A stretch of DNA of 64,000 nt from Lachnospiraceae bacterium A4 (lineage in GTDB: Bacteria; Bacillota; Clostridia; Lachnospirales; Lachnospiraceae): positions 49,293 through 113,292 of the forward strand of contig KE159528.1 in assembly GCA_000403215.2 (NCBI GenBank). Direction: 5' to 3'. This document shows, in pieces, positions 15,999 through 63,936 of the stretch. Within the stretch, counting starts at the first letter, position 1, and each line of letters begins with the position of its first letter. The translations under genes and the position numbers were made by a program. The notes below the pieces were generated by a model that ran no database searches, was not told the DNA's origin, and saw only the letters and a list, made by a program, of their open reading frames with translations.

Positions 15999-17369
15999 TT
16001 ATAAGCCAGCCTCTCCCTCCGCCTTGACAACCCATTCCAGCTTCTGTACATATACGCGGTACTCTGTGATTCCCATTTCCTGTAATTGTTTTTCAATCTC
16101 CTTATAATAGAAGCTACAGATGATAAGATGGCGCTTTTCCTCTGGAATTTCAAGGATTTTGTCAGGTTCTCGGATTTCTATGCCCATTCTCGAGCGCCCC
16201 CACTTATTCTCATCATTATCCACCAAAAATACAGGGCGATATCTGCTGCCCCATTTTTTCATGTAATCCTCAAACATCATGCCTGAACCAAAGAGAATAA
16301 TCTTCTTTCCTCTGCTGCCCTTAAACATTCCTGTTAATTTCTGTAAATACTCTCTATAAGAATGCTCTGGGTCATAGATGCCGGTGTGCTTGGGTTTTCG
16401 TTCCTCCTCTGGCGGAAACTTCATGTAATCCCTGCCCAGCGTCATAAAAAGATAGTTCTCATATCCAGCAGGTACTGGAATCCTTCGTCCCTCAAATTCC
16501 AGCTCGGCTGTCGTCTCGAAATCAGCAGCGTTTAAAATTCTGTGCTTTCCAGCCCCTGTAAAGACTGCCACATCTTTTGAAGGAGTTGTATAGAGACGCA
16601 TTGCCCTGTCTAGTTTTTTGCACAAGTGTTCATAGGGAATAAAATATGACACAAGTGTCATAAATTTACAAACCAGTAATGGAAGTTGGTCAAACCGTTT
16701 CAGCTCGTTTCCATACACTTTTGCATACAGCCATCGGCATGCTCGCTTAATTTTATGTTCCTTAGCAGCCAGCCTTTTCTCATCAGCAGTGCAATAGTCC
16801 ACCGGCAGAATGTCTATCCAAATGCCCAAATTACAAGCATGTCCCAACTCCCGCTCAGTGATGCCCGCAGTCTCACTGTTTCGCAGCTTTGTCAGACCGC
16901 CAAAAAAGCAGTTGCGGTCAGTCCACATTGTCTGTAAAAAATAAGGCCCACTTAGCTCTTGCGGCGCTATTTCGAGAAATTTGTCATAGTCCCTGCGCAG
17001 CATGCCGATGTCTAAATCGTCATCCCACGGGATAAAACCTTTATGGCGAACAGCGCCAAGAAGAGTGCCGTGAAGCAGAAAATAATGGATATTATGCTTT
17101 TTGCAGATAGCGTCTATCGTGTCCAGCATGGCAAGTTCCACCTGCCAAATTTTGCGCATCTTCTCTGGAATTTTATATTCATTCACACTGGTAATCTTGC
17201 CGAGCTTGACATAGTTGCCGCTGCCGACAAGATGAATTTCAATGTCATCTTCAATATCGGAGGAAAATTCGATTTTATTTTGGAACGAATCTTCATAGAT
17301 GCCGCCGCCAGCAGCCTTCAACGCTTTTCCTGAAATACTATAGTTGGAACCACTTTGATTTTTTTCCAT
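15999..17369 (-). CDS. LicD family phosphotransferase with C-terminal Rossmann module
   Basis: This 456-residue protein has three parts. Residues ~1-60 include GGGIYEDSFQNKIEFSSDIE, a segment shared with the acyltransferase at 20008-20931. The LicD domain (~65-345) carries GAVRHKGFIPWDDDLDIG, the nucleotidyltransferase-like metal site. Residues ~360-450 form a Rossmann-like module (KKIILFGSGMMFEDY...VFLVDND). LicD proteins transfer phosphocholine or related phospho-groups from CDP-activated donors to glycans. The ATG at 17369 is chosen because GGAGGTGAAT precedes it. It is the last gene of the operon. Confidence 0.88.
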   Translation of the reverse strand: MEKNQSGSNYSISGKALKAAGGGIYEDSFQNKIEFSSDIEDDIEIHLVGSGNYVKLGKITSVNEYKIPEKMRKIWQVELAMLDTIDAICKKHNIHYFLLHGTLLGAVRHKGFIPWDDDLDIGMLRRDYDKFLEIAPQELSGPYFLQTMWTDRNCFFGGLTKLRNSETAGITERELGHACNLGIWIDILPVDYCTADEKRLAAKEHKIKRACRWLYAKVYGNELKRFDQLPLLVCKFMTLVSYFIPYEHLCKKLDRAMRLYTTPSKDVAVFTGAGKHRILNAADFETTAELEFEGRRIPVPAGYENYLFMTLGRDYMKFPPEEERKPKHTGIYDPEHSYREYLQKLTGMFKGSRGKKIILFGSGMMFEDYMKKWGSRYRPVFLVDNDENKWGRSRMGIEIREPDKILEIPEEKRHLIICSFYYKEIEKQLQEMGITEYRVYVQKLEWVVKAEGEAGL

Positions 17370-17426
17370 ATTCACCTCCATTCCTTCATACACCAATTAA
17401 ATACCCTGTTGCTGCAAACTCTTTTA

Positions 17427-28994: not shown

Positions 28995-30374
28995 TTATCC
29001 TTCCTTCAAAAAGTCAAATAATCTCTGAGCCGCGTATCCGTCTGTATGATGATGGACAAATGGCATAAGTTTCTTTCTTGCCTCTTCAAAATCATCTTTC
29101 CCATGCGCCACTTTTTCCAGTTCTTCATAAAATGATTTCATTGTATTCACCACGGGACCGGGACGCCAAAATTCTAAAGGTTCCAAGATAAATCCCCGGT
29201 TCTTTGCATAACTATTTTCATCTTTATTTGTAAATATAATCGTTCTGTTTAATAAAAGATAATCAAAGTAAACTGACGAATAATCTGTAATCAATGCATC
29301 TGCGCCATTTATAAATTCATACATTGCCCTGTCGCCCAACAACTGCTCTGTCAGCAGCCCGCAGCAGTCGGATTCCATACACCATTCCTTCACCTTGGCT
29401 TCATCACTTGGATGCAGCTTAAAAACAAAAAACAAGTTATATCTTCTGCAAACAGATTGCAATTCATCTATATCAAAATCATTCCAATAAAACAGATACC
29501 CATTTTCATCGCCATTTCTCACGCCATCCGCCTCACGAAATGTAGGCATATATAATATAATCTTTTTCCCTCTGCTGTCTGGAAACCTGTCAGTCATGTT
29601 CTGCCTTCCATCTGTTACAAACAATAAGTCATTTCTCGGCATACCTGTCACAATATACTTTTTTGCAAGCGTTCCGGAACATGCGCATAAAAAGTTTGTG
29701 TAATTCTGTCCATAGGATACAATATAATCAAACTTTTTCCAGAGTTCTGTAAAAAAATTATCTGTTTCATCATTATAATTCACCAGCATATTCCCCATAA
29801 CTTTTAATGGATAACCATGCCATAACTGAATTATCTCTGCATTGCGTGCATCCATGTCATAGGGGAGTTTTCTCTCTGTTATAACAAATCTCGCTGCTGC
29901 CAGATCATAAAAATATTCATCTTGTTCCTTGTTATCTTCCCATATTTTTACCCTGAAATCATATACATTCAGCCTTCCAATATTTCTTAAATATTCCAAT
30001 GCCCATATGTTAGAATACGATTTGTGTTCCAAATATAAGAGAACCAATCGTTTCCTATCTTCTTCATAATCAAGATGACTGTAATCCAGTTTTCTTTCTA
30101 CATATTCCTCATTTTGTATATCAATCAGAGAAAATTTACGATATCCCAGTTTCAATAATTGGTCAATAATATCCAACCAATATTTTCGTGCTGTTGTTAT
30201 CAATATATAAATCTCATTGGAGAAATAAGGTTTCTCTATCACAAGCTCATTATAAGCTGTACCCTGTTTTTCCTCTAAATTATCAAACAAACCATCAATA
30301 CTTCTATCATCAAAAAAACCGCCTTTCATCATCTCAAAGCATTTTTTCGATATTCCAAATAAAAATAATTTCAC
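28995..30374 (-). CDS. CDP-glycerol glycerophosphotransferase family, N-terminal Rossmann module
   Basis: This 459-residue protein starts with a version of the shared Rossmann-like module (MKLFLFGISKKCFEMM...IYILITTARKYWLDII). The catalytic region is TagB/TagF-like: IIQLWHGYPLKVMGN with the catalytic His, KKIILYMPTFREADG, FKLHPSDE and ALITDYSSVYFDYLLLNRTI. It should transfer glycerol-phosphate or another polyol-phosphate from its CDP donor, matching the CDP-polyol genes at 57-63 kb. GTG start at 30374 after AAAGGAGATAAAC. Confidence 0.88.
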   Translation of the reverse strand: MKLFLFGISKKCFEMMKGGFFDDRSIDGLFDNLEEKQGTAYNELVIEKPYFSNEIYILITTARKYWLDIIDQLLKLGYRKFSLIDIQNEEYVERKLDYSHLDYEEDRKRLVLLYLEHKSYSNIWALEYLRNIGRLNVYDFRVKIWEDNKEQDEYFYDLAAARFVITERKLPYDMDARNAEIIQLWHGYPLKVMGNMLVNYNDETDNFFTELWKKFDYIVSYGQNYTNFLCACSGTLAKKYIVTGMPRNDLLFVTDGRQNMTDRFPDSRGKKIILYMPTFREADGVRNGDENGYLFYWNDFDIDELQSVCRRYNLFFVFKLHPSDEAKVKEWCMESDCCGLLTEQLLGDRAMYEFINGADALITDYSSVYFDYLLLNRTIIFTNKDENSYAKNRGFILEPLEFWRPGPVVNTMKSFYEELEKVAHGKDDFEEARKKLMPFVHHHTDGYAAQRLFDFLKEG

Positions 30375-49113: not shown

Positions 49114-50277
49114 TCATATTCTCTGCGTTAACTGAACAGCAGGCTCTACGCCTTCTGAATTTTCCGATGTAAATCCTCTGCACTTTCTGCAAAAACCAGT
49201 ATATCCTTTCGTTGTATAGCCTAATCGAAACTCCACTAGCTCTTTCTTTTTATCCGATGAAAAATCTGACAAGTCATATATTTCTTCTAAATCCTGTTCT
49301 CCTGCTATCCCTGCCACAGATGCGTATGCTGCATAATTACAGCTATATATTTTTCCACCCCTCAGTTCCTGCCATGATTGATTACAGTTATCTCGATGCG
49401 TTATTAATTTATCCTCTGTCCAACTGGTATAATCTGTTCTTTCTGGTGCAAGATCTATCCAACTATCTGCCTTATTGATATAATATTTAATATGATATTC
49501 TTCCAATTTACGAATCAATTCTTCAAACTGTGTATTAAATTGAGGAACTTTATTTCGATAATCATCAACTGTAAGCTCCACATCACACATAGATAATTTT
49601 TGCAGAATTTCTTCTTTTGGCACAATAGTTCCGTTTGTTACAGTCCGCAACGTATCAATTCTGTCACCATAATTTTTATCAATATATTCAAGAAGATCTG
49701 CCGTATACTTATAGAGCATAGGTTCCCCGCCACTAACATGAAATAGCATGATGTGATCCACACATGAAAAAAATAAATCTATATCCTGCACTAGCTCTTT
49801 CCATTCGCGAACATAAAATTGTTTTGCAAATGGATTAAAATTTAAGCAATATCTACAATTTAAATTACATGCTGTACTTGGCAAAAAAGATATGCTGGAA
49901 AAATATACCTTGTCATTTTTGTACACATGATATACTGATAGAAATTCTTCAATCATAAAGTAATCTGTATTTTTCCTATATTCTAAGGCTCTCAATTGTT
50001 CCAATGCACTAACCCTTGCTGCCTGTGACATCGTTACAATAATTCCGTCATTCTCACCAAGGCTGATATCCTCCAAAGAATTGCACATTTTTCCATCTAT
50101 CATGTTCCCATGCCTAGAAATGTCGCTATCTATATACCCTTTTATTTGAATTTCTGACTTAAAGATACGCATAAACTGTTTTCCATAATCACCTGCACCA
50201 AATAAATAAAATCTATTCTTCTCACTTATTTTTTGATACATATCATCATATTCATGTCCTCTGTTTTTCCATTTCAT
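49114..50277 (-). CDS. Radical SAM protein with N-terminal Rossmann module
   Basis: This 387-residue protein has the shared module near the N-terminus (FYLFGAGDYGKQFMRIFK, IKGYIDSDISRHG), the cluster motif CNLNCRYC at about residue 145, VSGGEPMLY, and C-terminal Cys residues (DNCNQSWQELRGGKIYSCNY, GFCRKCRGF) for auxiliary clusters. It is paralogous in plan to the gene at 47937 but clearly diverged. The two probably act in consecutive or parallel steps on the same glycan. Confidence 0.87.
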   Translation of the reverse strand: MKWKNRGHEYDDMYQKISEKNRFYLFGAGDYGKQFMRIFKSEIQIKGYIDSDISRHGNMIDGKMCNSLEDISLGENDGIIVTMSQAARVSALEQLRALEYRKNTDYFMIEEFLSVYHVYKNDKVYFSSISFLPSTACNLNCRYCLNFNPFAKQFYVREWKELVQDIDLFFSCVDHIMLFHVSGGEPMLYKYTADLLEYIDKNYGDRIDTLRTVTNGTIVPKEEILQKLSMCDVELTVDDYRNKVPQFNTQFEELIRKLEEYHIKYYINKADSWIDLAPERTDYTSWTEDKLITHRDNCNQSWQELRGGKIYSCNYAAYASVAGIAGEQDLEEIYDLSDFSSDKKKELVEFRLGYTTKGYTGFCRKCRGFTSENSEGVEPAVQLTQRI

Positions 50278-51323: not shown

Positions 51324-53410
51324 AGGCTGTCCGAAAACCCACAATTTTTGGCCATTTTGGGCACAAAAAATGCCAGGTTTTTCGGACATTATTTGTCCGT
51401 TTATAGTTACCTGACCTCGAAAACTGAATAAAATACGCTTTTTTGTTGTTATTTTTCCCATTATGCTGCAACAAGTGCCATCAGTTCTTCAAATGAGAAC
51501 ATGTTACACGCCCTGGACAGGTTATATCCCATGGCCATGAGCGCAAATTCCCCACCTACTTTCTGTTTACCCTTTAACAGAAAGCAGGCTGCTCCCATTG
51601 CTCGTTTTATTGTTCCAAACGGATGCTCTGAAATACACATCCGCTGGTTCATTTTTTCCCTGTCCGGCCTGAGTTTAAACCTGACTACCTTTTTCTTTTC
51701 AAAATGGTACTTTGCCTTCTTCTGGTTCTTTTTTCCTGGTTTCTCTGTTTCTTCTTCTGAGTTTTCCGCTTCTTCCGGTTTCCACCACTTTGCTTTCTTT
51801 TCCAGGCTGTCTTTGCCAAAATCCGTTTCCTTCCAGTTCGTGTTTCCCTTCCCGTTCACACACTTATCACGGTATGGGCATCCCTTGCACGCCTGCCTGT
51901 TGGCATATCTTGTCGCCCCATTTTTTTTGATGCTTTTTCTCCTGAGGATTTCCCCTCCGGGACAGTAAACCAGATCCCTTTCCGGATCCCTGACAAAATA
52001 CCCTTCCCCTGCACGGTTTTTCATTTCCTCTTCTGTTCCATAGGGGCTCTCCACTTTTTGTTCCGGCCCGTCCGAAACTTTTCTCCTTACCTCTGCTACC
52101 TCCATACCTTCTATTACATCCGCATATGCTTCCGGCACCACTCCCGCATGAAGACATCTCTTCAGTTCTTCTGCATTCGTGCCTGCTGTATTTAACTCCC
52201 CTGCTTCCTCATACTCGATCTCCAGTTCATATGTGTCCTGTCCGTCTGGCAGAATGACATTAGGAATAATTCCTTTCTCAAGACATAACACCATATCTTC
52301 GGCCTGTTCGTATCCCTTATCTGCCACAGCTTCAATAATCCTGTCCCCGGCTTCCTGTTTAATGGACTCCGCTGTCGGAGCAATTAATCCATGGTCTGTT
52401 GCCTGGTTTGTCGCCAGGTAATCCATGATCAGGTGCGTCTCTGAATCCACTGCTGTCTGGACATTGTACGACACGTCCATTCCATTTTTATTTTTCATCA
52501 GCCGCGCATCTGCATCTGTCAGTGAAATCTGCGTGTGGTTTTCTTTCTCCATCAGTTCCCTGTATGAACGGTATTTCTCCAGTCTTTCCTCTGCCTCCTT
52601 CAGTTTTGCTTCCAGTTCTTCCCTGGTCAGCGTTCCACTGGCAGCCTCCTCCTCTTTATCCGCTTCCTCTATCAGCCGCAGGTATTCCTGTGTGTGGTCT
52701 TCCAGCCACTTTATCCTGTCATCCAGTTTCATAATGGTAAAATTGCTGTCTTTTCCATTCCAGGCTTTAAACTTACTCCCATCTATAGACACGTATCCTG
52801 TTTCCAGATCTACGGTTACCCTTTTTAGAAATTCCTTAAATACTTCCTTTAAATTGTCTGCATTGTCTTTCCTGAAATCAGATATCGTGCGGAAGTCAGG
52901 ACGGAGTCCGCCAAGCATCCACATAACTTCAATGTTTGTGACGCATGCCGCCTCAAGTTTTCTGGATGACCGGATGTTATTGCGGTATCCGTATAGATAT
53001 AGTTTCAGCATACTCTGCGGATCATAACATGGCCTTCCTTCAAAACTTGGTTCTGTTTTTTCGAATCCCATCTCTTTTAAGTCTATGTGATCCACAAAAC
53101 AATCGATTACTCTTGCAATACTATCCCATTCCACCATGGAATCAAGTGTATTTATTACCGCCTGGTTTCTATTGATAGGTTTTACTATATATGGCATGGA
53201 AAACACCCCGCTAAACTGGAACTTTTAAGATACTCCCATTATACCAGATATTGGTGGAAAAGTCCCACATATTTGTTTATTTAGCGTACTTTATTCAGTT
53301 TTCAAGGTGCATTTATAAAAATCGCTCTGTAAGCGTTTTTTAGCTCTGTTTGGGCGATAATCCTACGTTTAAAATCCTGTTATCGCCTCTCAGGGGTTTT
53401 CGGACAGTCT
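51324..53410 (-). mobile_element. IS1182-family insertion sequence
   Basis: The transposase gene is flanked by 17-bp outer inverted repeats, AGGCTGTCCGAAAACCC (51324-51340) and its complement at 53394-53410 with one mismatch. A second, inner pair of 21-bp repeats (51419-51439 and 53283-53303, one mismatch) lies subterminally. Immediately outside are C-runs on both sides (51318-51323 and 53411-53415), consistent with a short C-rich target duplication. The element lies in operon orientation between a GT2 gene and the gene at 53340. Confidence 0.75.
51461..53197 (-). CDS. IS1182 family transposase
   Basis: This ~578-residue intact transposase has an N-terminal DNA-binding part (FEGRPCYDPQSMLKLYLYGY, PDFRTISDFRKDN), a DDE core with VSIDGSKFKAWN and AVADKGYEQAEDM, a Cys cluster (CKGCPYRDKC) and the C-terminal Glu region EHPFGTIKRAMGAACFLLKG. 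No frameshift or stop is seen, so the element could be active. The ATG at 53197 follows GGGGTG; the GTG three codons upstream is less likely. Confidence 0.93.
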   Translation of the reverse strand: MPYIVKPINRNQAVINTLDSMVEWDSIARVIDCFVDHIDLKEMGFEKTEPSFEGRPCYDPQSMLKLYLYGYRNNIRSSRKLEAACVTNIEVMWMLGGLRPDFRTISDFRKDNADNLKEVFKEFLKRVTVDLETGYVSIDGSKFKAWNGKDSNFTIMKLDDRIKWLEDHTQEYLRLIEEADKEEEAASGTLTREELEAKLKEAEERLEKYRSYRELMEKENHTQISLTDADARLMKNKNGMDVSYNVQTAVDSETHLIMDYLATNQATDHGLIAPTAESIKQEAGDRIIEAVADKGYEQAEDMVLCLEKGIIPNVILPDGQDTYELEIEYEEAGELNTAGTNAEELKRCLHAGVVPEAYADVIEGMEVAEVRRKVSDGPEQKVESPYGTEEEMKNRAGEGYFVRDPERDLVYCPGGEILRRKSIKKNGATRYANRQACKGCPYRDKCVNGKGNTNWKETDFGKDSLEKKAKWWKPEEAENSEEETEKPGKKNQKKAKYHFEKKKVVRFKLRPDREKMNQRMCISEHPFGTIKRAMGAACFLLKGKQKVGGEFALMAMGYNLSRACNMFSFEELMALVAA

Positions 53411-54965
53411 CCCCCGCATGCTTCCATTTTTTATTATACTTATCAATATCAAAATAGAGAATTCCGTTTATTCCTACTTCAAGCATCAATCCAGCATTAA
53501 GAATTTTGTCCTTATTAATAATTCTCCCTAATTGTTCTTCTATTTCATCATAATAATATTTACTTGCAATGATCACTACTACATCCTCTTTCTTATTAGA
53601 AATGATATCAACTGGTTCAATTTGCATCTCCGTTATATCACTACTTTGTATATTATTATCTAAATACCCTACTATCTTAAAATTTATATGATTTGAATTA
53701 TTGTGATACCACTCGCGGGCGCGAATACCTGCAGGCATGATATACACGTTTCCCCTTATATGCAAAAGTTTTGATACGCTACCGTCTATTAAATTTAATT
53801 TCTCATATACTAAAGGATAATAAAGGATTCCATGTTTCTTGTTCGATACCCCATTTTTTCTTACTGTATGAATAAAAACAGAACATGTCTCATTTATTTT
53901 TTGAATCATACTGATATTCCTATCTAATTCATTATAGCTATACCTTCCATTTTTATTAGATATAAAAAATCTTCCAATATCTAAAGATGTACAATGAAAC
54001 TGTTGAAATATATACACGACAGCCTTACAAAAAACTTTACTGAAGATTAATTCCCCTTTAATATAAAAAACAATATCCGTTTTGTATTCCTCTTTCCTAT
54101 AATATCCTACCTCGATATTCGGATAATCCTGTTGATATATGCTTTCCACTGTAATATCACTTTTTCTGTCTAAAACAAAGAGGCAATGGACTTTCATATC
54201 ACCACAGAAACAGATCTGCTGACAGTCCGCATATAATATAGAATAATATAAATCTAGTGCCTTTTTATACGGATGTTTCTGTTGATAAAAATACTTTTCC
54301 ATAAACTTTTTAACCAGCAACTCAGATTTCTCAAAATCCCACTTAATTGTATGTCTTTGATGAAAAGCAATCGGATTCACAAGCTCTTTCATTGTAATTC
54401 CTAGCATCTTACACTTGATTAAAATACATAAATCCCAAACAGATTGTACATAAAAACCATCATCAAAAAAACCGTTTACCAGTGCTTTATCTAAAAAAAA
54501 CATATCAATCCCATCAAAATGCAGTTTCCAATCCAGATTTTTAATATCTTCTAATTGATTAATTTCATTTCTATGTATTATTATGATACTGTTTTTCGCT
54601 TCATGTTCTATATAGCCATACATGCCTGATGGCATATCAGAAAGAAAAATATCTGAGTTTATAAATCCGCACACATTTTCTGTCCTATCACTGGCTTCCT
54701 CTAATATGTCCTGAATATATGGCAAATTTTTTTCCGCATTCCTTTTTATCTCTACAAATTCTACAGGTATATCAGAAAACATTTCCCGTAAAATCTCAAT
54801 CTCTTCTTTTATATTGCAGGAAATCACCTGAAATCCATTGTCAATCCATGTTTTTACAGCTTTCATCTGCTTTTCAATATTAAAAGGAGCCAATGAAGTT
54901 CCCAAAATAATCTTATTCTCTCTTCTTTCTTGCATCCTGTTTCTTTCTGTAACTTTATATATCAT
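53340..54965 (-). CDS. Putative glycosyltransferase with C-terminal Rossmann-like region; tail altered by IS
   Basis: This 541-residue protein's N-terminal ~200 residues look like a divergent GT-A-type domain (IILGTSLAPFNIEKQMKAVK, CGFINSDIFLSDMPSG as a DxD-like site). A central part has no recognised family. Residues ~400-500 follow the shared Rossmann-like pattern weakly (NVYIMPAGIRAREWYHNNSN, VVVIIASKYYYDEIEEQL). The last ~16 codons (TVRKPLRGDNR...) lie inside the IS1182 end; without the IS the frame would end KWKHAGGGV. The start is uncertain: 54965 or the ATG at 54935. Confidence 0.6.
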   Translation of the reverse strand: MIYKVTERNRMQERRENKIILGTSLAPFNIEKQMKAVKTWIDNGFQVISCNIKEEIEILREMFSDIPVEFVEIKRNAEKNLPYIQDILEEASDRTENVCGFINSDIFLSDMPSGMYGYIEHEAKNSIIIIHRNEINQLEDIKNLDWKLHFDGIDMFFLDKALVNGFFDDGFYVQSVWDLCILIKCKMLGITMKELVNPIAFHQRHTIKWDFEKSELLVKKFMEKYFYQQKHPYKKALDLYYSILYADCQQICFCGDMKVHCLFVLDRKSDITVESIYQQDYPNIEVGYYRKEEYKTDIVFYIKGELIFSKVFCKAVVYIFQQFHCTSLDIGRFFISNKNGRYSYNELDRNISMIQKINETCSVFIHTVRKNGVSNKKHGILYYPLVYEKLNLIDGSVSKLLHIRGNVYIMPAGIRAREWYHNNSNHINFKIVGYLDNNIQSSDITEMQIEPVDIISNKKEDVVVIIASKYYYDEIEEQLGRIINKDKILNAGLMLEVGINGILYFDIDKYNKKWKHAGETVRKPLRGDNRILNVGLSPKQS

Positions 54966-55976: not shown

Positions 55977-57209
55977 CTATCCCCTCTTCTCCCACCGCTC
56001 AATCATCTTCACAACTCTCTTACTTGCCTTGCCATCCTCAAAAATCCCATTTTCTTTCATAAACTGTTCTAGGCTGGCTTTATATACTACTTCATCAAAA
56101 TTCAAAATATTTTCCACCAGCCTGCCATGATCAAGCGCCACTGGAAACGGAAGTTTGTACATATCAAAAAATAAATCTCCCCGCTCTGCTATGTAATCCT
56201 CCAAATCATCTGCGTAGATAAATCCCGGAATGCCTATTAGTCCAGCTTCAAAGATTGCACTCGAATAGTCTGTGAGGAATGCGTCCGAGGCGGCGATCAA
56301 CTCGTTCATGTCAGGTCTCTGGCTGACATCAATTAGTCTTGTAGACATTTGATGTGTCTCCAGCCTGTCCATCTTCGCGGCAAGCTGCGGATGGAGACGA
56401 AGGAAAATATACCATTTGCCACCAAAACGCTTCTCAAGTGCATCACTCAGATGTTCAAAATCTACGGTTGTACTGTCGGTACTGACTGTGCGTACTGTAT
56501 TCTGACTTCCTCCTCTGAACGTGGGCGCATAGAGCAGGATTTTGGCATCCTTTGGAATATGATATTCATTTCTCAATTGTATATACTTCTTATCTCGCTG
56601 GTTCAGCAGGACATCACAGCGCGGTGTACCTGTCTTAATGATCTTACCTTCATAGATCAACCCATCACGGTACATGTGGTCACACCATGTTGACCCCGAA
56701 AGTACATAATCAATCATTTTTGAATCATTTGCGCTGACGATATATGCCATTTGTGGAAAGAGATTTCCTCTGTACTTTCCAATCGGCTTGATGCACAAGG
56801 TTGCGTGCCATGTTTGGATATAACACTGGCCTTTTCTTTTTTTTGTGCCATAGGCAGTCCTTGTATTGCCTACCCATATTCCTGCCGTTGACAGGTGATA
56901 TGCCCTGTTCCAAAGCGTATTTTTTACTTTTCTGATTCCTTTTGGAAATTTCTTGCTGTCATCATTGACCAGCCATATGATCTTGTGCTTTGTTCCGTTT
57001 TTCCTGTTACGTTTCAGCAATTCCTCCGCAACATATTTGGGGCTGCACCCATAACCGCCATTTCCCTCAAAAGTCCACATGACAATCTTGCTTTTGTCAA
57101 TAGGAAAAATACGACATATATAGTATGCCAAGCCATGTACAAATGCTTCTGCCCTTCTTCTTATGATGTAAATGTTTTCAGATAAGCTACTCTTTTGTCC
57201 ATATCCCAT
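55977..57209 (-). CDS. CDP-glycerol glycerophosphotransferase family (TagB/TagF-like)
   Basis: This 410-residue TagF-like enzyme has IVMWTFEGNGGYGCSPKYVA, IQTWHATLCIKPIGKYRG with the catalytic His, KILLYAPTFRGGS, FLRLHPQLA and FLTDYSSAIFEAGLIGIPGF. It should add a polyol-phosphate unit from a CDP donor. It carries no fused Rossmann-like module and its base composition is closer to that of the neighbouring precursor genes (57-63 kb). It lies between the precursor module and the AT-rich assembly genes. Confidence 0.9.
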   Translation of the reverse strand: MGYGQKSSLSENIYIIRRRAEAFVHGLAYYICRIFPIDKSKIVMWTFEGNGGYGCSPKYVAEELLKRNRKNGTKHKIIWLVNDDSKKFPKGIRKVKNTLWNRAYHLSTAGIWVGNTRTAYGTKKRKGQCYIQTWHATLCIKPIGKYRGNLFPQMAYIVSANDSKMIDYVLSGSTWCDHMYRDGLIYEGKIIKTGTPRCDVLLNQRDKKYIQLRNEYHIPKDAKILLYAPTFRGGSQNTVRTVSTDSTTVDFEHLSDALEKRFGGKWYIFLRLHPQLAAKMDRLETHQMSTRLIDVSQRPDMNELIAASDAFLTDYSSAIFEAGLIGIPGFIYADDLEDYIAERGDLFFDMYKLPFPVALDHGRLVENILNFDEVVYKASLEQFMKENGIFEDGKASKRVVKMIERWEKRG

Positions 57210-57223
57210 GCCAACAAACTTCC

Positions 57224-57952
57224 TTATGTAAATATTCCTGTCAGGCTTTCTGGAATTTCTGCTATCGCTCGCTCATAATCCTCAACAAAATCAATCTCCG
57301 CCCAGAATGCACCATCTGTCGGTACTGCCTTTATATTAAAATCTTCCTCGTCAATCAACCGCTGTATAGCACTCTCAAAATATGCATCAAAAACCTTTTC
57401 CTTCAAAAGTGCCCTCGTCTTTTGTTTGAGTGCGGAAAGCACTTTCTTACGAAAGGACGCCATACCTATAAATTCTCCGTCCGCTGTTTCATTAGGCATC
57501 TGTTTTGTGATTTGCTGGAGCCTTCCCTCTTTGCTTCTCACCTTCATTGCCTCATCATCACATATGCCATAATCAACGGGTAGTGTAACATCAAACTCCA
57601 TCTTCACCATTTTTTCCAAAATAGATGGTTCGCATATGGTATCTGCGTGAAGATAAATAAAATCGTCCTGTATCAAATGCATTCCCATATAAAACGACCC
57701 AAGCACATTCATCATCTCGTAAAATGGATTATACGCAAACCGTATATTTTTCATAGTTTTAGCAAGCTCTTCAAATGCCTCACTTTGGTATCCTGTCACA
57801 ATAATAATCTCTCCAACACCATATGCTTCCAGAAGTTTGAGATTGTATTCTATCAGTTTATGTCCTTTTATTTCCACAAAGGATTTTGGTTTTCCTGCGG
57901 TCAGGCTTCCCAGTCTGCTGCCTCTGCCTGCTGCCATGATCATTGCCTGCAT
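57224..57952 (-). CDS. LicC-like nucleotidyltransferase
   Basis: This 242-residue NTP-transferase starts with MIMAAGRGSRLGSLTAGKPK, the pyrophosphorylase signature with catalytic Lys, followed by IIIVTGYQSEAFEELAK and FIYLHADTICEPSIL. It resembles choline-phosphate cytidylyltransferase LicC and related CDP/UDP-sugar enzymes. With LicD at 15999 it could form a phosphocholine-type pathway, but no choline kinase or transporter is present, so another phospho-alcohol is equally possible. The ATG at 57952 follows GGAGGAGACATA and overlaps the upstream TAA by one base. Confidence 0.85.
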   Translation of the reverse strand: MQAMIMAAGRGSRLGSLTAGKPKSFVEIKGHKLIEYNLKLLEAYGVGEIIIVTGYQSEAFEELAKTMKNIRFAYNPFYEMMNVLGSFYMGMHLIQDDFIYLHADTICEPSILEKMVKMEFDVTLPVDYGICDDEAMKVRSKEGRLQQITKQMPNETADGEFIGMASFRKKVLSALKQKTRALLKEKVFDAYFESAIQRLIDEEDFNIKAVPTDGAFWAEIDFVEDYERAIAEIPESLTGIFT

Positions 57953-59097
57953 TATGTCTCCTCCCATGCCTTCTCATAAATTTTCCGCACGATATCTGGT
58001 TCCTGCGATGCTGGATCATTCAAAAGGTTTCCTGTCACTGTGTCTATCATATCCTGTAGCATTGTCCTGTCCACCGCTTTTAATGAACTTGGCAGTTTCA
58101 ACGATGCTATAAATTGACCCATTGTATGAATGCAGTTCTGCTTTCCCTGTATTATCCTTCCTGCAAGTATGCTTACCAGATGTTCCACACTCTCACGGTT
58201 ATATTCATATTCATACGCAAGCCATGCAGGATACAATGCAGCAAGTCCCCAGCCGTGGCTTGTATCGGTGTATGCCCCCAATGGATACTGTAATCGGTGC
58301 GGCAGACCTGTACTGGCATTTCCCAGATTAATGCCCATCATCATGCTTACATAACTCATCTGACTGCGTGCCTCTATATCTCCCAGATTGGCAGCAAGTC
58401 TTGGAAGCATCTGTCCAGCTAACTTTAGAGCATACTCTGACTGCATTCGTGTGTATTGTGATGCCGCCACTGAAATATAACTCTCCATAGCATGTGCTAC
58501 GACATCAAATCCCGTTTCCATCGTTCTATGAAATGGAACAGATTCTGTAAAAATAGAATCAACAATAGCCACTTGCGGAAACAAACGCTTTCCTCGGATA
58601 CCAACTTTCATCTTCTTTATATCATCTGTGATAATCGCTGCTTTGCTCAGCTCGCTGCCTGTTCCTGCTGTCGTAGGAATCGCTATGACAGGCAATGTTC
58701 CTTCCCCCGGTTCCATGCCATCATAGAGATATTCTTCAATCAGAGCTTTCGTTCCAGTTCTCGCCGCGACAGCCTTTGCGAGATCTATTGCACTCCCACC
58801 GCCAAATCCGATAACAACGTCAATCTTATTTTCTATTGCAGCCTCTATTCCTTGCTTCGCCTCTGAGAGCCTTGGATTAGCACTTACCTTGTCATAAATG
58901 ACCACACGTTTTACCTTCTGGCATTCCTCAAGGTTCTTTTTGAGATCAGCAATGTAGCCTAGCCTAGCAAGAGTGCGCCCTGTTGTCACAATCATGACAT
59001 TTCCACGCAATATATTTTCGATTTCTTTTATTGACTCCTGCCATATATCCCTGCCAAAATAAATCGCTGTCGGGATATAAATCTGTTCCGGTTTCAT
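57952..59097 (-). CDS. Iron-containing alcohol dehydrogenase
   Basis: This 381-residue group III alcohol dehydrogenase has the NAD(P)-binding GFGGGSAIDLAKAVAA and PTTAGTGSE, metal ligands in AIVDSIFT, VVAHAMESY and LPHRLQY, and a further His in DTSHGWG. It is located between the kinase and the nucleotidyltransferase, which suggests reduction of a small aldehyde or ketone to the alcohol that is later activated. Its stop overlaps the start of the nucleotidyltransferase gene, so the two are coupled. GGAG precedes the ATG. Confidence 0.9.
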   Translation of the reverse strand: MKPEQIYIPTAIYFGRDIWQESIKEIENILRGNVMIVTTGRTLARLGYIADLKKNLEECQKVKRVVIYDKVSANPRLSEAKQGIEAAIENKIDVVIGFGGGSAIDLAKAVAARTGTKALIEEYLYDGMEPGEGTLPVIAIPTTAGTGSELSKAAIITDDIKKMKVGIRGKRLFPQVAIVDSIFTESVPFHRTMETGFDVVAHAMESYISVAASQYTRMQSEYALKLAGQMLPRLAANLGDIEARSQMSYVSMMMGINLGNASTGLPHRLQYPLGAYTDTSHGWGLAALYPAWLAYEYEYNRESVEHLVSILAGRIIQGKQNCIHTMGQFIASLKLPSSLKAVDRTMLQDMIDTVTGNLLNDPASQEPDIVRKIYEKAWEET

Positions 59098-59107
59098 TCC
59101 AACACTC

Positions 59108-60640
59108 CTAAAGATTTTCTATACGAATCCGCTTCTGACTGTACAGCCTGTCCGTGATAGCCATTCTCTTTACAAACAATGGTTTCAATGTGTGATATGT
59201 TTCTTTATATAAATAATAAAGTTCCTTATACTTTTCATGATTCCTTCTATCAGGATTGATGACCATACGCACCTTGACAAAATGCTCTGCCGCCTCATAC
59301 AGCGATGAGTAGACTCTCTGCCCATACAGCGCCATCATCGCAGCACCAGTCGCTGTCGTCTCAAACTCAGAGAGCACCTGTATCTGCCTCCCCGTAATGT
59401 CTGCCTTGATCTGTGAGATGAGATTAATCCGTGCCAGACCACCTGACAGACGGATTGTATCAATCTTTAATCCGGCTTCTTCAATTGCAGCAATCATATC
59501 AAGGTCTATAAACCCCGTGCTCTCAAAAACTGCCCTTGTCATTTCCTTTCGCGTATGCATTCGTTCCAAACCGAAAAATACTCCACGAGCATCACTGTCC
59601 CACAGCGGCGCACGTTCTCCTAACAAGTATGGCAGGAAAATAACACCCCCGCCCCCCAATGAGGCTTCACCTGCATCTTTTTCCATAAGCTCATACGGCA
59701 GCGTCTCATTCTGGTAATAGCACTGTTTTACCCACTCGATCAATCCGCCGCCCATGTTATTCGAACCGCCTATAATATGAAACCCGCCCTCATAATACGG
59801 CTGTTGTTGTATCCTGCTACCGATGTGATCCAGCTTTTTTTCAGAAGCGGCCCTGAATACAGTGACTGTTCCTGACACATCACTTGCTGTTCCTTCGCGG
59901 ACTACACCGCTGCCCACAAAAGAACAAATAGCATCGTAGGTTGACAAGATCACGCTGGTTTCCATCGAAAGACCTGTATGTCTGGCAGCAGACTCTGTTA
60001 TCGTTCCTATCTTAGTCCCCGGCGTCACAACTTCAGGAAGCAGTTGTTCACTGATGCCAATTTCTTGTAAAAGTTGGGAGGGGTATTGTTTTTTCTGTAC
60101 ATCATAATACCATTTATGAGCATTTATATAATCTGTCACATACCGCCCCGTGAATTTTGCAGCAAGATAATCATTCGGAGCAAGCAATTTATAGGTTTTA
60201 TGATAAATTTCCTTTTCGTGGAACTTTACCCACAATGCTTTTGGGAGCATAAACGATGGCGATGCATTGCCTCCTGTTCGCGCTTTCACTTCTGCAAAAG
60301 CATCAAGGCTTCCAATAAAACTGCTTTCCTCTCTTGCCCTCTTGTCTGAAACCATCATACAGGGCATAAGGGCTTCTCCATTCTCGTCAACACATACCAG
60401 ACAGGAGGACGAAGATGTCACGGTCAAATAATCTATATGAATATTTCCGGCATCTGCCAATGTCTCTCGAATCACGATACCTGCTTTTTCCCACCATTCT
60501 GATGGAAGCTGAGTTACGGTCTCCCCTCTGAGGGATGTCTCAATCGGAATAAATGACGAGGCAAGCTTGCTGCCTGTCGTATCAAATATGATACTTCGTA
60601 TGCTTTTCATTCCCATGTTTAATACAAGTATTGTTTTCAC
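59108..60640 (-). CDS. FGGY-family carbohydrate kinase
   Basis: This 510-residue kinase has an FGGY fold: an N-terminal ATPase part (LVLNMGMKSIRSIIFDTTGS), SSSSCLVCVDENGEAL, DVSGTVTVFRAASEKKLDHI, and the substrate-site loop FLPYLLGERAPLWDSDARGV. Members phosphorylate sugars or polyols such as xylulose, ribulose, glycerol or erythritol; the substrate is not clear from motifs. It lies between an alcohol dehydrogenase and an aldolase and so may feed a polyol phosphate to the activation step. GTG start at 60640 after GGAAGGACC. Confidence 0.88.
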   Translation of the reverse strand: MKTILVLNMGMKSIRSIIFDTTGSKLASSFIPIETSLRGETVTQLPSEWWEKAGIVIRETLADAGNIHIDYLTVTSSSSCLVCVDENGEALMPCMMVSDKRAREESSFIGSLDAFAEVKARTGGNASPSFMLPKALWVKFHEKEIYHKTYKLLAPNDYLAAKFTGRYVTDYINAHKWYYDVQKKQYPSQLLQEIGISEQLLPEVVTPGTKIGTITESAARHTGLSMETSVILSTYDAICSFVGSGVVREGTASDVSGTVTVFRAASEKKLDHIGSRIQQQPYYEGGFHIIGGSNNMGGGLIEWVKQCYYQNETLPYELMEKDAGEASLGGGGVIFLPYLLGERAPLWDSDARGVFFGLERMHTRKEMTRAVFESTGFIDLDMIAAIEEAGLKIDTIRLSGGLARINLISQIKADITGRQIQVLSEFETTATGAAMMALYGQRVYSSLYEAAEHFVKVRMVINPDRRNHEKYKELYYLYKETYHTLKPLFVKRMAITDRLYSQKRIRIENL

Positions 60641-60641
60641 A

Positions 60642-61472
60642 TTAACTGGTCCTTCCTAACAGCCTGAGCTTGTTTGTTGTCATATTTTGTATTGAAGTAT
60701 GTATTTGCGAATTGATTACCAATGGGTCAAATCCGCTTTTCTCCACACCATTTTTGCAGATACTTTCTTCTATTCCACACTTATATGCAAGTTTTACTTC
60801 TGTAGAAATATTGATTTTCTTTACATTTCTATAAGATAACAGTCTGCTTAGGATTTCATCAGACAATCCTGACCCCCCGTGAATTACGAACGGAATATCT
60901 GTTATTTCGTTGATTTCACTTATCATTTGATAATGGAGATTCGGCACGCCTTTGTACTGTCCGTGTACTGTTCCTATAGCAGCCGCCAGCATATCAATTC
61001 TGGTATTTTTTACAAACCTGTCAATATCCTCCATTCTGGCAATTCCTGCTTCGACAGACGATATCTCATCCTCCTGTCCCCGTATCTGTCCAACTTCTGC
61101 CTCGACCAAGACACCTTTTCTTGCGGCAAGATCAGCCACCTCATTGGTGAGTCTAATATTTTCATCAAGTGGTTTATCTGACGCATCAATCATCACGGAA
61201 TCCCAACCATATTCAATTGCGGTATGAATCCAATCCAATGTTCTGCAATGATCCAGATGAAGATATGTATTGATTTTTTTCTTTTGAGAATAACTTTTTA
61301 CGTATGCATGAAATTCTTCTATATCAAGCTGTTGAAATGCCTTCATGGAAGTTTGCAATATGATGTCACATTTTAACTGTGACGCAGCATCCATCACTGC
61401 TTTTGCTGAAGGGATACTCCACACATTGAAAGCAAAGTATTGCGGTGAATTAGAACTGATATACTTTACCAT
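60642..61472 (-). CDS. Class II fructose/tagatose-bisphosphate aldolase family
   Basis: This 276-residue zinc aldolase has YLHLDHCRTLDWI, DSVMIDASDKPLDENI, VLVEAEVGQIRG, GTVHGQYKGVPN and FVIHGGSGLSDE, together giving the zinc and DHAP-binding residues. It is clearly related to GatY/KbaY-type aldolases. It may cleave or form a DHAP-linked sugar that supplies the polyol. The ATG at 61472 follows GGAGGGAG; a GTG three codons upstream is less likely. It starts two bases before the kinase frame, in one operon. Confidence 0.9.
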   Translation of the reverse strand: MVKYISSNSPQYFAFNVWSIPSAKAVMDAASQLKCDIILQTSMKAFQQLDIEEFHAYVKSYSQKKKINTYLHLDHCRTLDWIHTAIEYGWDSVMIDASDKPLDENIRLTNEVADLAARKGVLVEAEVGQIRGQEDEISSVEAGIARMEDIDRFVKNTRIDMLAAAIGTVHGQYKGVPNLHYQMISEINEITDIPFVIHGGSGLSDEILSRLLSYRNVKKINISTEVKLAYKCGIEESICKNGVEKSGFDPLVINSQIHTSIQNMTTNKLRLLGRTS

Positions 61473-61502
61473 AACGCACACTCCCTCCCAAAAAATCCAC
61501 TG

Positions 61503-62237
61503 CTAAGTATCAAGATACACTTCCGGTTCGTTCAAGATCAGGTCCGTGATTCCCTGTGCCTCCAACGGCGCAAAATCAAGCCTTGTCCCTGTCGGCTTCT
61601 CCGGATAGAGATGTCCGCTCATCCACGCTCTCACTGTGTATCCGCTTAATTCCGCCGTCGTAAGATCCATTCCCCGCCAGAACGGATGCAGTGCCAAGGC
61701 ACCACACCCATCTTTTAATTTGGTAAGACAGTCAGAAACTTTTGTGTCCAGTATGCCAAGCTCTGCCTTGGGGTCAATAGCTTTTAACTTTACAAGTGAC
61801 TTTGCATTAAAGGAGGAATAAACAACTATGTTCTGTAATTCCCGACTATGTATCAACGCCACAAGCTTTTCTTCCATGCCGTCGTATGGATAAACACTGT
61901 TTTTCAATTCTATGTTTAATTTTAATCCTGCTTTCAACCGTGCTTCCAGAAGCTCAAGCACCTCTGTGAGCGTCGGAATGAATTGGTTTGGATACGCATT
62001 ACCCGCATCAATTTTTAAGCTCTTTATTTCTGTCAGCGAATAGTCTCTTACAAATCCCATACCATTTGTCGTTCGGTCTACGCGTTCATCATGAAGAACC
62101 ACCAGCTCACCATCTCTCGTAAGCTGTATATCCAGCTCAATGCCTGTCAATCCCTGTAGCGATGCCGCCTTTTCAAATGCGAGCAGCGTATTTTCTGGAT
62201 AACGCTGGCTGCATCCCCTGTGTGCCCAGAGTCTCAT
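61503..62237 (-). CDS. Glycerophosphodiester phosphodiesterase
   Basis: This 244-residue GDPD TIM barrel has LWAHRGCSQRYPENTL, GIELDIQLTRDGELVVLHDE and the C-terminal Trp/Asp-containing TVRAWMSGHL. It releases glycerol-3-phosphate from glycerophosphodiesters, possibly supplying the cytidylyltransferase encoded just upstream. No signal peptide, so it is cytoplasmic. The ATG at 62237 overlaps the stop of the upstream gene (ATGA). Confidence 0.9.
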   Translation of the reverse strand: MRLWAHRGCSQRYPENTLLAFEKAASLQGLTGIELDIQLTRDGELVVLHDERVDRTTNGMGFVRDYSLTEIKSLKIDAGNAYPNQFIPTLTEVLELLEARLKAGLKLNIELKNSVYPYDGMEEKLVALIHSRELQNIVVYSSFNAKSLVKLKAIDPKAELGILDTKVSDCLTKLKDGCGALALHPFWRGMDLTTAELSGYTVRAWMSGHLYPEKPTGTRLDFAPLEAQGITDLILNEPEVYLDT

Positions 62238-63592
62238 CTCACTGTCCCGCCTTTCCTGTACTTGCTTTCCTGTATTAAAAATTTCTCCATAATCTCTGCC
62301 ATCGCGATCGACTCCCCCCGCGTCAATTTAAACACACTCTTGTCGTCCCCATTGATCATGTTCAGGAAATCGCGAATCTCATAGCGGAGTCCATCGCCAA
62401 AAAAGCGTTCTGAATATTTATCCACCTGAGATGCATTTTCATAATGTACTTCAAAGTAGGTGGTTTTCCACCATGGCGCAGATGCTACAATATAGCCCTT
62501 TGTACCTGCAATGAGCAGGCGTCCTTCAGATTTGACACCCAGCCCGCATGTAGCTGTCGCGATTCCTCTGGGATAACGAAACGAAACCTTTGTAAAAAGA
62601 TCCAGTCCGTTGCTGTCATGAATCGCCTCAAACCGGACATCCTCGTATTTATTTCCAAAAAGCTTGATAATCGGAAGCATGCAGTAACTTCCAAGCTCCG
62701 TAAGGCTGCCGCCGCACGCTGTATCTGTCAGTTCTCTCTTGTTCCTGTCCTCGAGCTTTGTAAAACAGGCGTCAATATATTGAACTGTTCCTATAATGCC
62801 GCTGCACGCGATGCCAAGTAATTTTTCAAAGCCCGGGCAATATGCTGTCTTAATTCCCTCAAAAAGCACCAGATTTTGCTGTTTTGCATAGTCAAAAAGC
62901 TCTTCCGAGTGGCTCTTTTGCAACACCATGGGTTTTTCGCACAGAACATGCTTCCCATGCTGTAGGGATAATTTCACATAATCATAATGTGTTTGATGCG
63001 GCGACGCCACATAAACAGAATCTATTCCTTTAAAAAATGTTTCAATATCATTAAAAAAATCAATCTCCCAAACTTTCGCAAACCGCTCCGCGCTCTCCCA
63101 GTTCGGATTATAAACCCGCTGCACATCAATGCCACTCACCTGCTTTGATTCCGGCACAAACCGATTTGCAATTCTTCCGGTTCCGATGATGCCTACTTTT
63201 TGAATATGCCTGTTCTGCTCGCGCAGCATGGTACTTGATATATTTTTCGTTCTTTCCAGATAGATTACTTGACAATAATCTGAGATGTAATCAAATGCCC
63301 CCATCCAGTCTGAACCGATTGCAAAGATATCAATGTGATATTTCTGCACATCACTGATTTTCTGCCCTACTGTTTCCTCTATAATCACTTCGTCAGCAAA
63401 TCCTGACTTTCTAACATTTTCAATTCGTGTCATAAGGGAGTCCACTACATTGAGTTTTCCCCGCTCCATATCATACTTCTCTGTCGTCACCCCGACGATG
63501 AGATAATCCCCTAATTCTTTCGCCCTCTTGAGTAAACGGTAATGCCCTTCATGAAAGAGGTCAAATGTCCCATATGTAATTACTTTTGTCAT
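62234..63592 (-). CDS. TagD-like cytidylyltransferase fused to Gfo/Idh/MocA oxidoreductase
   Basis: This 452-residue fusion has residues ~1-130 as a glycerol-3-phosphate cytidylyltransferase-type domain (VITYGTFDLFHEGHYRLLKR with HxGH, IFAIGSDWMG, ISSTMLREQ). Residues ~135-450 are a Gfo/Idh/MocA oxidoreductase with VGIIGTGRIANRFVPES, the conserved GKHVLCEKPMVLQ, and a large beta-sheet domain. The fusion suggests that one polypeptide makes a reduced polyol phosphate and its CDP derivative, or channels related steps. It is the first gene of the operon; AAAGAGGTATT precedes the ATG. Confidence 0.88.
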   Translation of the reverse strand: MTKVITYGTFDLFHEGHYRLLKRAKELGDYLIVGVTTEKYDMERGKLNVVDSLMTRIENVRKSGFADEVIIEETVGQKISDVQKYHIDIFAIGSDWMGAFDYISDYCQVIYLERTKNISSTMLREQNRHIQKVGIIGTGRIANRFVPESKQVSGIDVQRVYNPNWESAERFAKVWEIDFFNDIETFFKGIDSVYVASPHQTHYDYVKLSLQHGKHVLCEKPMVLQKSHSEELFDYAKQQNLVLFEGIKTAYCPGFEKLLGIACSGIIGTVQYIDACFTKLEDRNKRELTDTACGGSLTELGSYCMLPIIKLFGNKYEDVRFEAIHDSNGLDLFTKVSFRYPRGIATATCGLGVKSEGRLLIAGTKGYIVASAPWWKTTYFEVHYENASQVDKYSERFFGDGLRYEIRDFLNMINGDDKSVFKLTRGESIAMAEIMEKFLIQESKYRKGGTVR

Positions 63593-63837
63593 AATACCTC
63601 TTTCCTGCTAAAATCAATATTATTTCACTCCACCCATTCTTAAACTTGTCAAGAAGAATGCAGCCTTTTAAAATTATCATAAGGATTATCGGAACGTTTT
63701 CGTCTGTGATGCTTCTGGTCTTTCACCACAAGCATGCACTTCGCTCCGCGTAAGCCGCGGTCCTGGCATACCCGAAAACAGGTCCATGACATCTGCATGT
63801 AAGGATGCCCGTTTAGCTAATGCCGACTTTTTGCCTT

Positions 63838-63899
63838 TGGAACTGTTAACAAATAGCTGTTGACAATTCATTGTGATAAGCTATTTGTTAACAGTTCCA
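63838..63899. repeat. Perfect 21-bp inverted repeat with 20-nt spacer
   Basis: The left arm (63838-63858) starts TGGAACTGTTAACAAATAGC and the right arm (63879-63899) is its exact complement. The 20-nt spacer contains TTGACA (63860-63865) on the plus strand. There is no T-run on either side, so a terminator is unlikely; a recombinase or regulator site or a MITE-like element is possible. Confidence 0.7.
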
Positions 63900-63936
63900 T
63901 ATGTCAAATGTACGTTGCTGGGATCCGATATTGGTA

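Follow-up and report, generated by a model that had tools for sequence, protein, structure and literature searches.

An aldolase, kinase, dehydrogenase and nucleotidyltransferase cassette likely to make a second CDP-activated alcohol in a surface-polysaccharide region of Lachnospiraceae bacterium A4

Why does a single operon in the surface-polysaccharide region of Lachnospiraceae bacterium A4 carry more enzymes than the synthesis of cytidine diphosphate (CDP)-glycerol needs? The stretch that we analyzed (the window) comprises 64,000 nucleotides (nt) of this 6.96-Mb genome, namely positions 49293-113292 of contig C2 (KE159528.1); C12 and C36 denote other contigs of the same genome and L-numbers denote fetched stretches or loci. 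The first 15 kb of the window hold other genes, and from about 16 kb onward it is dominated by the polysaccharide region, which includes glycosyltransferases, WbsX, WcbI, DegT, an epimerase, radical-SAM genes, a second TagF-like gene and LicD. A prior reading made from the sequence alone had pointed to seven genes in this region, and all of them were found on the minus strand where it had placed them, in the transcription order FUS-GDPD-ALD-KIN-ADH-NT-TAGF1:

62234..63592, minus strand: FUS, a fusion of a TagD-like cytidylyltransferase (residues 1-126) and a Gfo/Idh/MocA oxidoreductase (Pfam CTP_transf_like and GFO_IDH_MocA)
61503..62237, minus strand: GDPD, partner of FUS, glycerophosphodiester phosphodiesterase family (Pfam GDPD; a Gfo-GDPD fusion occurs in L023)
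60642..61481, minus strand: ALD, first gene of the cassette, a class II (FBA/GatY-type) aldolase without the DPR arginine (Pfam F_bP_aldolase)
59108..60640, minus strand: KIN, second gene of the cassette, a xylulokinase-like FGGY kinase (Pfam FGGY_N and FGGY_C)
57952..59097, minus strand: ADH, third gene of the cassette, an iron-containing alcohol dehydrogenase (Pfam Fe-ADH)
57224..57967, minus strand: NT, fourth gene of the cassette, a LicC/PntC-like nucleotidyltransferase predicted to be a cytidine triphosphate (CTP):X-phosphate cytidylyltransferase (Pfam NTP_transf_3/NTP_transferase)
55977..57209, minus strand: TAGF1, a TagF-like (PF04464) transferase, the presumptive user of CDP-X from the cassette (Pfam Glyphos_transf)

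The gaps between these genes range from -16 to +21 nt (1 nt for ALD-KIN, 10 nt for KIN-ADH, a 16-nt overlap of ADH and NT, and 14 nt for NT-TAGF1). The sequence-only reading of a single operon holds as far as this tight run goes, but the single enzyme set that it envisaged resolves into two separable units, FUS with GDPD on the one hand and the ALD-KIN-ADH-NT cassette on the other. Likewise, the second cytidylyltransferase-like enzyme is present as NT, but it is LicC/PntC-like and belongs to a superfamily different from that of TagD. We consider it quite likely that the cassette makes a second CDP-activated alcohol. The fuller model, to which we give slightly less than an even chance, is that the cassette is a self-contained route to a second CDP-polyol or CDP-diol for a dedicated TagF-like or LicD transferase, that FUS and GDPD stand apart from it, and that the aldolase acts first.

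The case for a cassette comes from its recurrence. A scan of genome contigs anchored on ADH, with gene presence scored by tblastn, yielded 31 related loci (32 with the window). KIN, ADH and NT are found in all 31 (three NT copies are cut by contig ends) and ALD in 27, mostly with gaps of only a few nt between the genes. The ADH proteins range from 66% down to 40% identity to the window copy, and the hosts comprise Lachnospiraceae, other Clostridia, Treponema, Selenomonadaceae and Massilibacillus metagenome-assembled genomes; the cassette has probably spread horizontally. Surveys of the phylum and the family with an ADH profile (398 and 397 genomes; cut-offs 1e-120/1e-90) matched the A4 genome alone, so the cassette is either rare or was missed by these strict searches. 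KIN is matched by 134 records of a plasmid collection, all at less than 60% identity (28.8-31.4% among the 12 matches listed); phages gave one partial match to NT, and viral contigs gave none.

The neighborhood of the cassette was examined using open reading frames (ORFs) of at least 150 amino acids (aa) within 3.5 kb of it. Setting aside the clusters of cassette, TagF, FUS, LicD, 848-aa-type, GDPD and TnpB proteins left 107, from which four further ORFs were dropped (antisense ones in L014 and L029, a kinase fragment in L030 and a 985-aa ORF in L041). The 103 proteins scanned gave Pfam matches to Glyco_trans_1_4 (13), Glycos_transf_1 (12), Glycos_transf_2 (7) and Polysacc_synt (5). The commonest neighbors are glycosyltransferases, followed by flippases and nucleoside diphosphate (NDP)-sugar enzymes, and no sugar transporter was seen among the best 25 of the 94 neighbor families. 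Some flanks, such as that upstream of L041, look unrelated.

A candidate user of the product also travels with the cassette: in 26 of the 32 loci it is flanked by a TagF-like gene (17 loci) or a LicD gene (9), and in none by both. The former is found in the window and in 16 of the 31 other loci, with one more copy (L025) cut by a contig end; the latter lies directly upstream of ALD in all nine cases. In a tree of 21 rows, a long and well supported branch separates the cassette-linked TagF cluster from the other TagF of the window; a Treponema protein groups among the Lachnospiraceae ones, and the positions of the long rows are unsure. The cassette thus appears to swap its transferase between the TagF-like and LicD types. 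Two further transferase genes of the window bear on this point:

28995..30374, minus strand: second TagF-like (PF04464) transferase, distant from TAGF1 (Pfam)
15999..17396, minus strand: LicD-family protein, separated from the cassette by about 40 kb, which may use a CDP donor

The earlier suggestion that TagF-like enzymes and LicD use the CDP donors is likely for a TagF-like or LicD protein encoded beside the cassette, but for the LicD of the window, some 40 kb away, use of the cassette donor is a guess.

Turning to the other unit, FUS and GDPD probably form a module for making CDP-glycerol, as judged from their domains and context. A FUS paralogue (71% identical) on C12 lies in an operon with an 848-aa protein, GDPD, LicD and an NTP transferase-aminotransferase fusion; the 848-aa protein looks TagF-like by eye only and has no Pfam or NCBIfam match. 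ALD, KIN and ADH are absent from the 20-kb stretch (L008) around this paralogue. The association of FUS with GDPD is backed by gene fusions, namely a Gfo-GDPD fusion in L023 and a metallophosphoesterase-GDPD fusion downstream of FUS in L017, and in L018 the FUS-GDPD and ALD-KIN-ADH-NT units are divergently oriented. A FUS-type fusion was found within the fetched stretch of 11 of the 32 cassette loci, window included, and was not seen in the other 21, many of which are short contigs. The cassette occurs twice in the genome CAJSZV01: the L016 copy is accompanied by FUS and TagF, and the L043 copy by LicD, without a FUS in its stretch. As in TagD-type CDP-glycerol synthesis, the TagD domain of FUS can be aligned over its full length with 1coz and 2b7l, both glycerol-3-phosphate cytidylyltransferases; unlike that system, FUS is fused to a Gfo/Idh domain, is paired with a phosphodiesterase and scores 110.2 bits against TIGR01518 (model positions 1-123 of 125), below the cut-off of 165.4. 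Since this cut-off was not reached, we term the domain TagD-like and not TagD. The separability of the FUS-GDPD and four-gene units supports the initial claim that the operon holds more enzymes than CDP-glycerol needs, and its two CDP donors correspond to these two donor routes.

Several related arrangements were noted around such modules. The C12 operon (L008:12296-17232) combines FUS, GDPD and LicD with a 664-aa fusion of a LicC-like NTP transferase and a class I/II aminotransferase, and may represent a route to a CDP-amino-alcohol. Metallophosphoesterase-GDPD and Gfo-GDPD fusions occur near operons of this kind at L017:3891-6299, L020:1062-3290 and L023:5452-7248, the L020 case being recognized by sequence likeness only. 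Xylose-isomerase-like TIM-barrel proteins, once fused to a GT8 domain, adjoin Gfo/FUS genes (L023:2419-7248 and L026:2984-5177) and may hint at the substrate of the Gfo domain.

What, then, might the cassette make? In the model that we prefer, ALD would split a ketose-1-phosphate into dihydroxyacetone phosphate (DHAP) and a free short aldehyde, ADH would reduce this aldehyde to an alcohol, KIN would phosphorylate the alcohol, NT would transfer cytidine monophosphate (CMP) to the alcohol phosphate to give CDP-X, and TAGF1 (or LicD) would pass X-phosphate to a glycan. This aldolase-first order is favored because it uses all four enzymes and explains a lost arginine in ALD; we put it forward tentatively, as a somewhat doubtful detail of the model. 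The sequence names no product, and the branched or chain-shortened polyol phosphate that had been suggested was not borne out.

ALD is a class II aldolase by both sequence and fold. Residues D77, H78, E127, E129, H173, H201, N224, S226 and T227 are retained in all 28 rows of the alignment, and S204 is S in 18 and T in 10; we take the conserved residues to be the catalytic Asp, the metal-binding His and those at the DHAP end. The arginine of the DPR motif, which presumably contacts the aldehyde phosphate in fructose-bisphosphate (FBP) aldolases, is found in none of the rows, where L, I, V, T, S or M takes its place; seven rows do carry an Arg at another position of the 16-residue stretch around it. 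DPR is kept in housekeeping-type FBP aldolases, namely L046 of the A4 genome and L051 of another genome. Because the DPR Arg is absent from the ALD rows, an unphosphorylated aldehyde is favored, and ALD probably handles DHAP plus such an aldehyde, a prediction that hangs on one residue. YdjI is a class II aldolase that acts on unphosphorylated aldehydes. ALD shares the fold of YdjI-like enzymes, with 6ofu among its structural matches (Z 30.7, 245 aligned residues, root-mean-square deviation 2.0, 31% identity); however, many phosphosugar aldolases match it equally, with FBP, tagatose-bisphosphate and sulfofructose-phosphate aldolases also scoring Z 30-34. C36 (L045:23-2277) encodes a further pair of FGGY kinase and class II aldolase, which may be catabolic; this aldolase is 38% identical to ALD.

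KIN scores 284.1 bits against the XylB model TIGR01312, below its cut-off of 380.25. Foldseek ranks first a structure entitled gluconate kinase (Lactobacillus acidophilus), followed by xylulose kinases at ranks 2-9. The structure model has a predicted local distance difference test (pLDDT) score of 79.8, with residues 312-360 under 50, and the modeled fold does not reveal a substrate. ADH is an iron-containing dehydrogenase with relatives acting on small alcohols: these include lactaldehyde reductase and 1,3-propanediol oxidoreductase, and butanol and methanol dehydrogenases score higher. An active-site Arg in ADH (HR[LM]QY) was considered as a mark of a phosphorylated substrate and rejected, as the butanol dehydrogenase 1vlj has the same HR.

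The closest solved proteins to NT are PntC (6pd1; 89.9 bits, residues 2-239 of 242) and LicC (1jyk; 87.3 bits, residues 2-233), and NT is accordingly predicted to use CTP. LicC acts on phosphocholine and PntC on 2-aminoethylphosphonate. Unlike the systems of these cytidylyltransferases, the cassette has no choline, aminotransferase or phosphonate gene and carries an alcohol-forming set in that place. Among relatives of NT from the plasmid collection, some are direct neighbors of aminotransferase and LicD genes, as read by eye, and another is separated by about 4 kb from a gene for phosphonopyruvate decarboxylase. Since the LicC/PntC relatives of NT act on small phospho-alcohols and phosphonates, an X of two to four carbons would be favored.

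Several observations weigh against this aldolase-first model. Regarding ALD, the Lys of the HGxYK motif, which we place close to the phosphate of DHAP, is conserved in no more than 16 of the 28 rows (the window copy has it), and DPR is an unclean marker: three GatY-like controls (L048-L050) have DPK and the C36 aldolase has neither form. The varying Lys and the mixed controls weaken the suggested use of a free aldehyde. A DHAP-forming ketose-1-phosphate would have to feed ALD, and a candidate source for it is not evident from the genes. The cassette itself is imperfect in L030, where KIN is split. The counting rule finds no transferase of either type next to the cassette in L018, L027, L028, L037 and L039; the TagF-like gene in L028 is of the distant type and that of the cassette cluster in L018 sits in the FUS unit. 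Moreover, the two modules still tend to co-occur: among 10 genomes lacking FUS in the cassette stretch, six carry a full-length FUS elsewhere, four at 58-71% identity (one with an internal stop) and two at 42-44%, with the remaining four having only pieces of FUS (two genomes) or none (two).

The remaining difficulties also speak for a kinase-first order, which we consider unlikely. Here, KIN would act on a free ketose, ADH would convert the product to an alditol phosphate and NT would form a CDP-alditol (a pentitol or tetritol) in the manner of CDP-ribitol or CDP-arabinitol, with ALD feeding or recycling the ketose. KIN is nearest to ketose kinases, specifically xylulose kinases by its TIGR01312 score and Foldseek ranks 2-9, which fits this order better. 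ALD is missing from four of the 31 loci (L014, L023, L039 and L041), leaving the core without it, and the top class II aldolase match in each such genome looks generic (four of seven matches were read), so that ALD is either dispensable or its product comes from elsewhere. The xylose-isomerase-like proteins of L023 and L026 lie near cassettes too. On the other hand, KIN falls short of the TIGR01312 cut-off, and any ketose that ALD built from DHAP would carry a phosphate already, so that it is hard to see what KIN would do in the 27 ALD-containing loci.

It is improbable, in our estimate, that the product is instead a glycerol-isomer donor, i.e., CDP-2-glycerol or CDP-sn-glycerol-1-phosphate, made by a logic like that of the pneumococcal gtp1-gtp2-gtp3 genes. 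The capsule locus of type 23F is annotated, in PMC3493582, with a putative glycerol-2-phosphate dehydrogenase, a nucleotidyl transferase, a phosphotransferase and a glycerol phosphotransferase (wchX) in a row, and this functional set is that of ADH, NT, KIN and TAGF1. A second route beside FUS would be useful only if it gave a different isomer. However, gtp1-3 has no counterpart of the aldolase, which is added in 27 of the 31 related loci, the kinase of the cassette is of the FGGY family, and the likeness to the Gtp proteins is one of annotated function.

The sequence-only reading had made the fusion itself the source of an unusual polyol phosphate, in one pathway with the aldolase, kinase and ADH. 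The presence of FUS-type proteins in 11 of the 32 fetched stretches and elsewhere in six of 10 further genomes would agree with this, as would a Gfo/Idh domain with no assigned role in CDP-glycerol synthesis and a TagD domain below its cut-off. Nevertheless, FUS pairs with GDPD and occurs on C12 without ALD, KIN and ADH, the units are divergent in L018, 21 of the 32 fetched cassette stretches, many of them short contigs, show no FUS, and the TagD domain matches 1coz and 2b7l along its length. On the first three of these grounds we rejected one pathway shared with FUS, and we regard it as quite improbable. Finally, a catabolic KIN-ALD-ADH unit that landed in the operon, an outcome that the sequence-only reading had itself named as counting against its proposal, although it resembles the classical fucose/rhamnose set of kinase, aldolase and lactaldehyde reductase and the genome has the separate kinase-aldolase pair on C36, is very improbable indeed and was rejected, because it leaves unexplained the co-occurrence of NT in 31 of 31 loci and the transferase gene, TagF-like or LicD, that adjoins the cassette in 26 of 32, and is further contradicted by polysaccharide neighbors in which glycosyltransferases are commonest and by the lack of a transporter among the best 25 of the 94 families.

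The operon carrying FUS and the cassette has a further feature at its head, where the strand reads from the stop of a TnpB-like gene through a structured RNA element to FUS:

63672..63833, minus strand: structured RNA element in the operon leader, following a nuclease-dead TnpB-like gene
L007:1269-2627, minus strand, just beyond the window end and on the same strand as the operon: TnpB-like gene (Cas12f1-like_TNB; below the TnpB cut-off)

The A4 genome has three TnpB-like genes and three such elements, one each. A model built from seven copies aligned by MAFFT detected elements in 27 of the 116 relatives searched; 26 of these belong to the 38 listed genomes of the genus of the window (A4 included). 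Of 40 elements listed, 30 were fetched and examined, at least three of which are seed copies (L071, L098 and L072). All 30 have a TnpB-like gene upstream on the same strand, and 27 have downstream a homologue of the 848-aa polysaccharide-locus protein of C12. Across 35 distinct rows, 96.7% of the cells are paired and 10 of the 15 pairs show changes on both sides; cells with double changes number 80, where shuffling gives 20.2 and sliding no more than 13, in an alignment that was fitted to the model and leans towards its structure. The seven MAFFT-aligned seeds show double changes in eight of the 15 pairs. No Rfam family matched the seven loci at gathering scores, and in a lax search of L007 880-1300 all ten matches listed scored under the gathering scores of their own families.

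In the TnpB-like proteins the RuvC-I Asp and RuvC-II Glu, at positions assigned from known motifs, are lost in 34 of 34 rows, and the RuvC-III Asp, placed by alignment with 8hr5, in all 33 readable rows (L013 was left out of the 34, as L072 carries the same protein). A search with the 16 nt after the element as a guide, genome-wide for two of the three A4 copies and within the fetched stretches for the third, gave self and chance-level matches only, with the guide start being uncertain. The interval from the TnpB-like gene to FUS yielded no intrinsic terminator, where shuffled versions of the entire stretch scanned would lead one to expect 1.7. The pairing of a TnpB-like protein that has lost its RuvC residues with a structured RNA is reminiscent of TldRs, the nuclease-dead TnpB transcription factors; yet PMC13418256 links TldRs to flagellin and csrA, whereas the link here is to polysaccharide operons and no guide match was found. 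A link of TldR or TnpB to polysaccharides was not seen among the titles and abstract starts listed in searches of the open-licence literature, which does not prove its absence. The element may act as a guide RNA in the manner of TldR systems or as a leader that the TnpB-like protein reads, and this TnpB-derived protein is possibly a regulator of surface polymers. A long inverted repeat (about 63829-63912) directly upstream of the element is not found at the two other copies in the genome and looks like a small inserted element.

Other recurrent elements were observed at the polysaccharide loci. Near-identical copies of a DDE transposase lie in three such loci of the genome (window 51461-53206, L008:9987-11732 and L066:8493-10238), and the ORFs at window 53340-54965 and L066:10372-11271 share a 24-residue end tail, as if cut by the same element. 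A radical-SAM-like family recurs near six loci (window 49114-50277, L008, L016, L019, L030 and L041).

Which phosphodiesters a bacterial surface can bear depends on CDP-polyols, and to our knowledge the known ones are limited to those of glycerol, ribitol and a small number of other polyols. CDP-polyol donors for TagF and LicD transferases are of a known kind; we found no report of this cassette's enzyme set in a search of the open-licence literature, to which it appears to be new. The boldest form of our proposal, which is doubtful when taken as a whole, is that the product would be a CDP-linked short alcohol new as a glycan donor (e.g., CDP-ethylene glycol, CDP-propanediol or CDP-tetritol) and that the operon would be under a genus-wide system of nuclease-dead TnpB-like proteins and leader RNAs for surface-polymer loci. 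More broadly, as a discrete four-gene cassette that crosses lineages and swaps its transferase, it should have a product that is identifiable by simple expression in a laboratory strain, apart from the CDP-glycerol-type genes.

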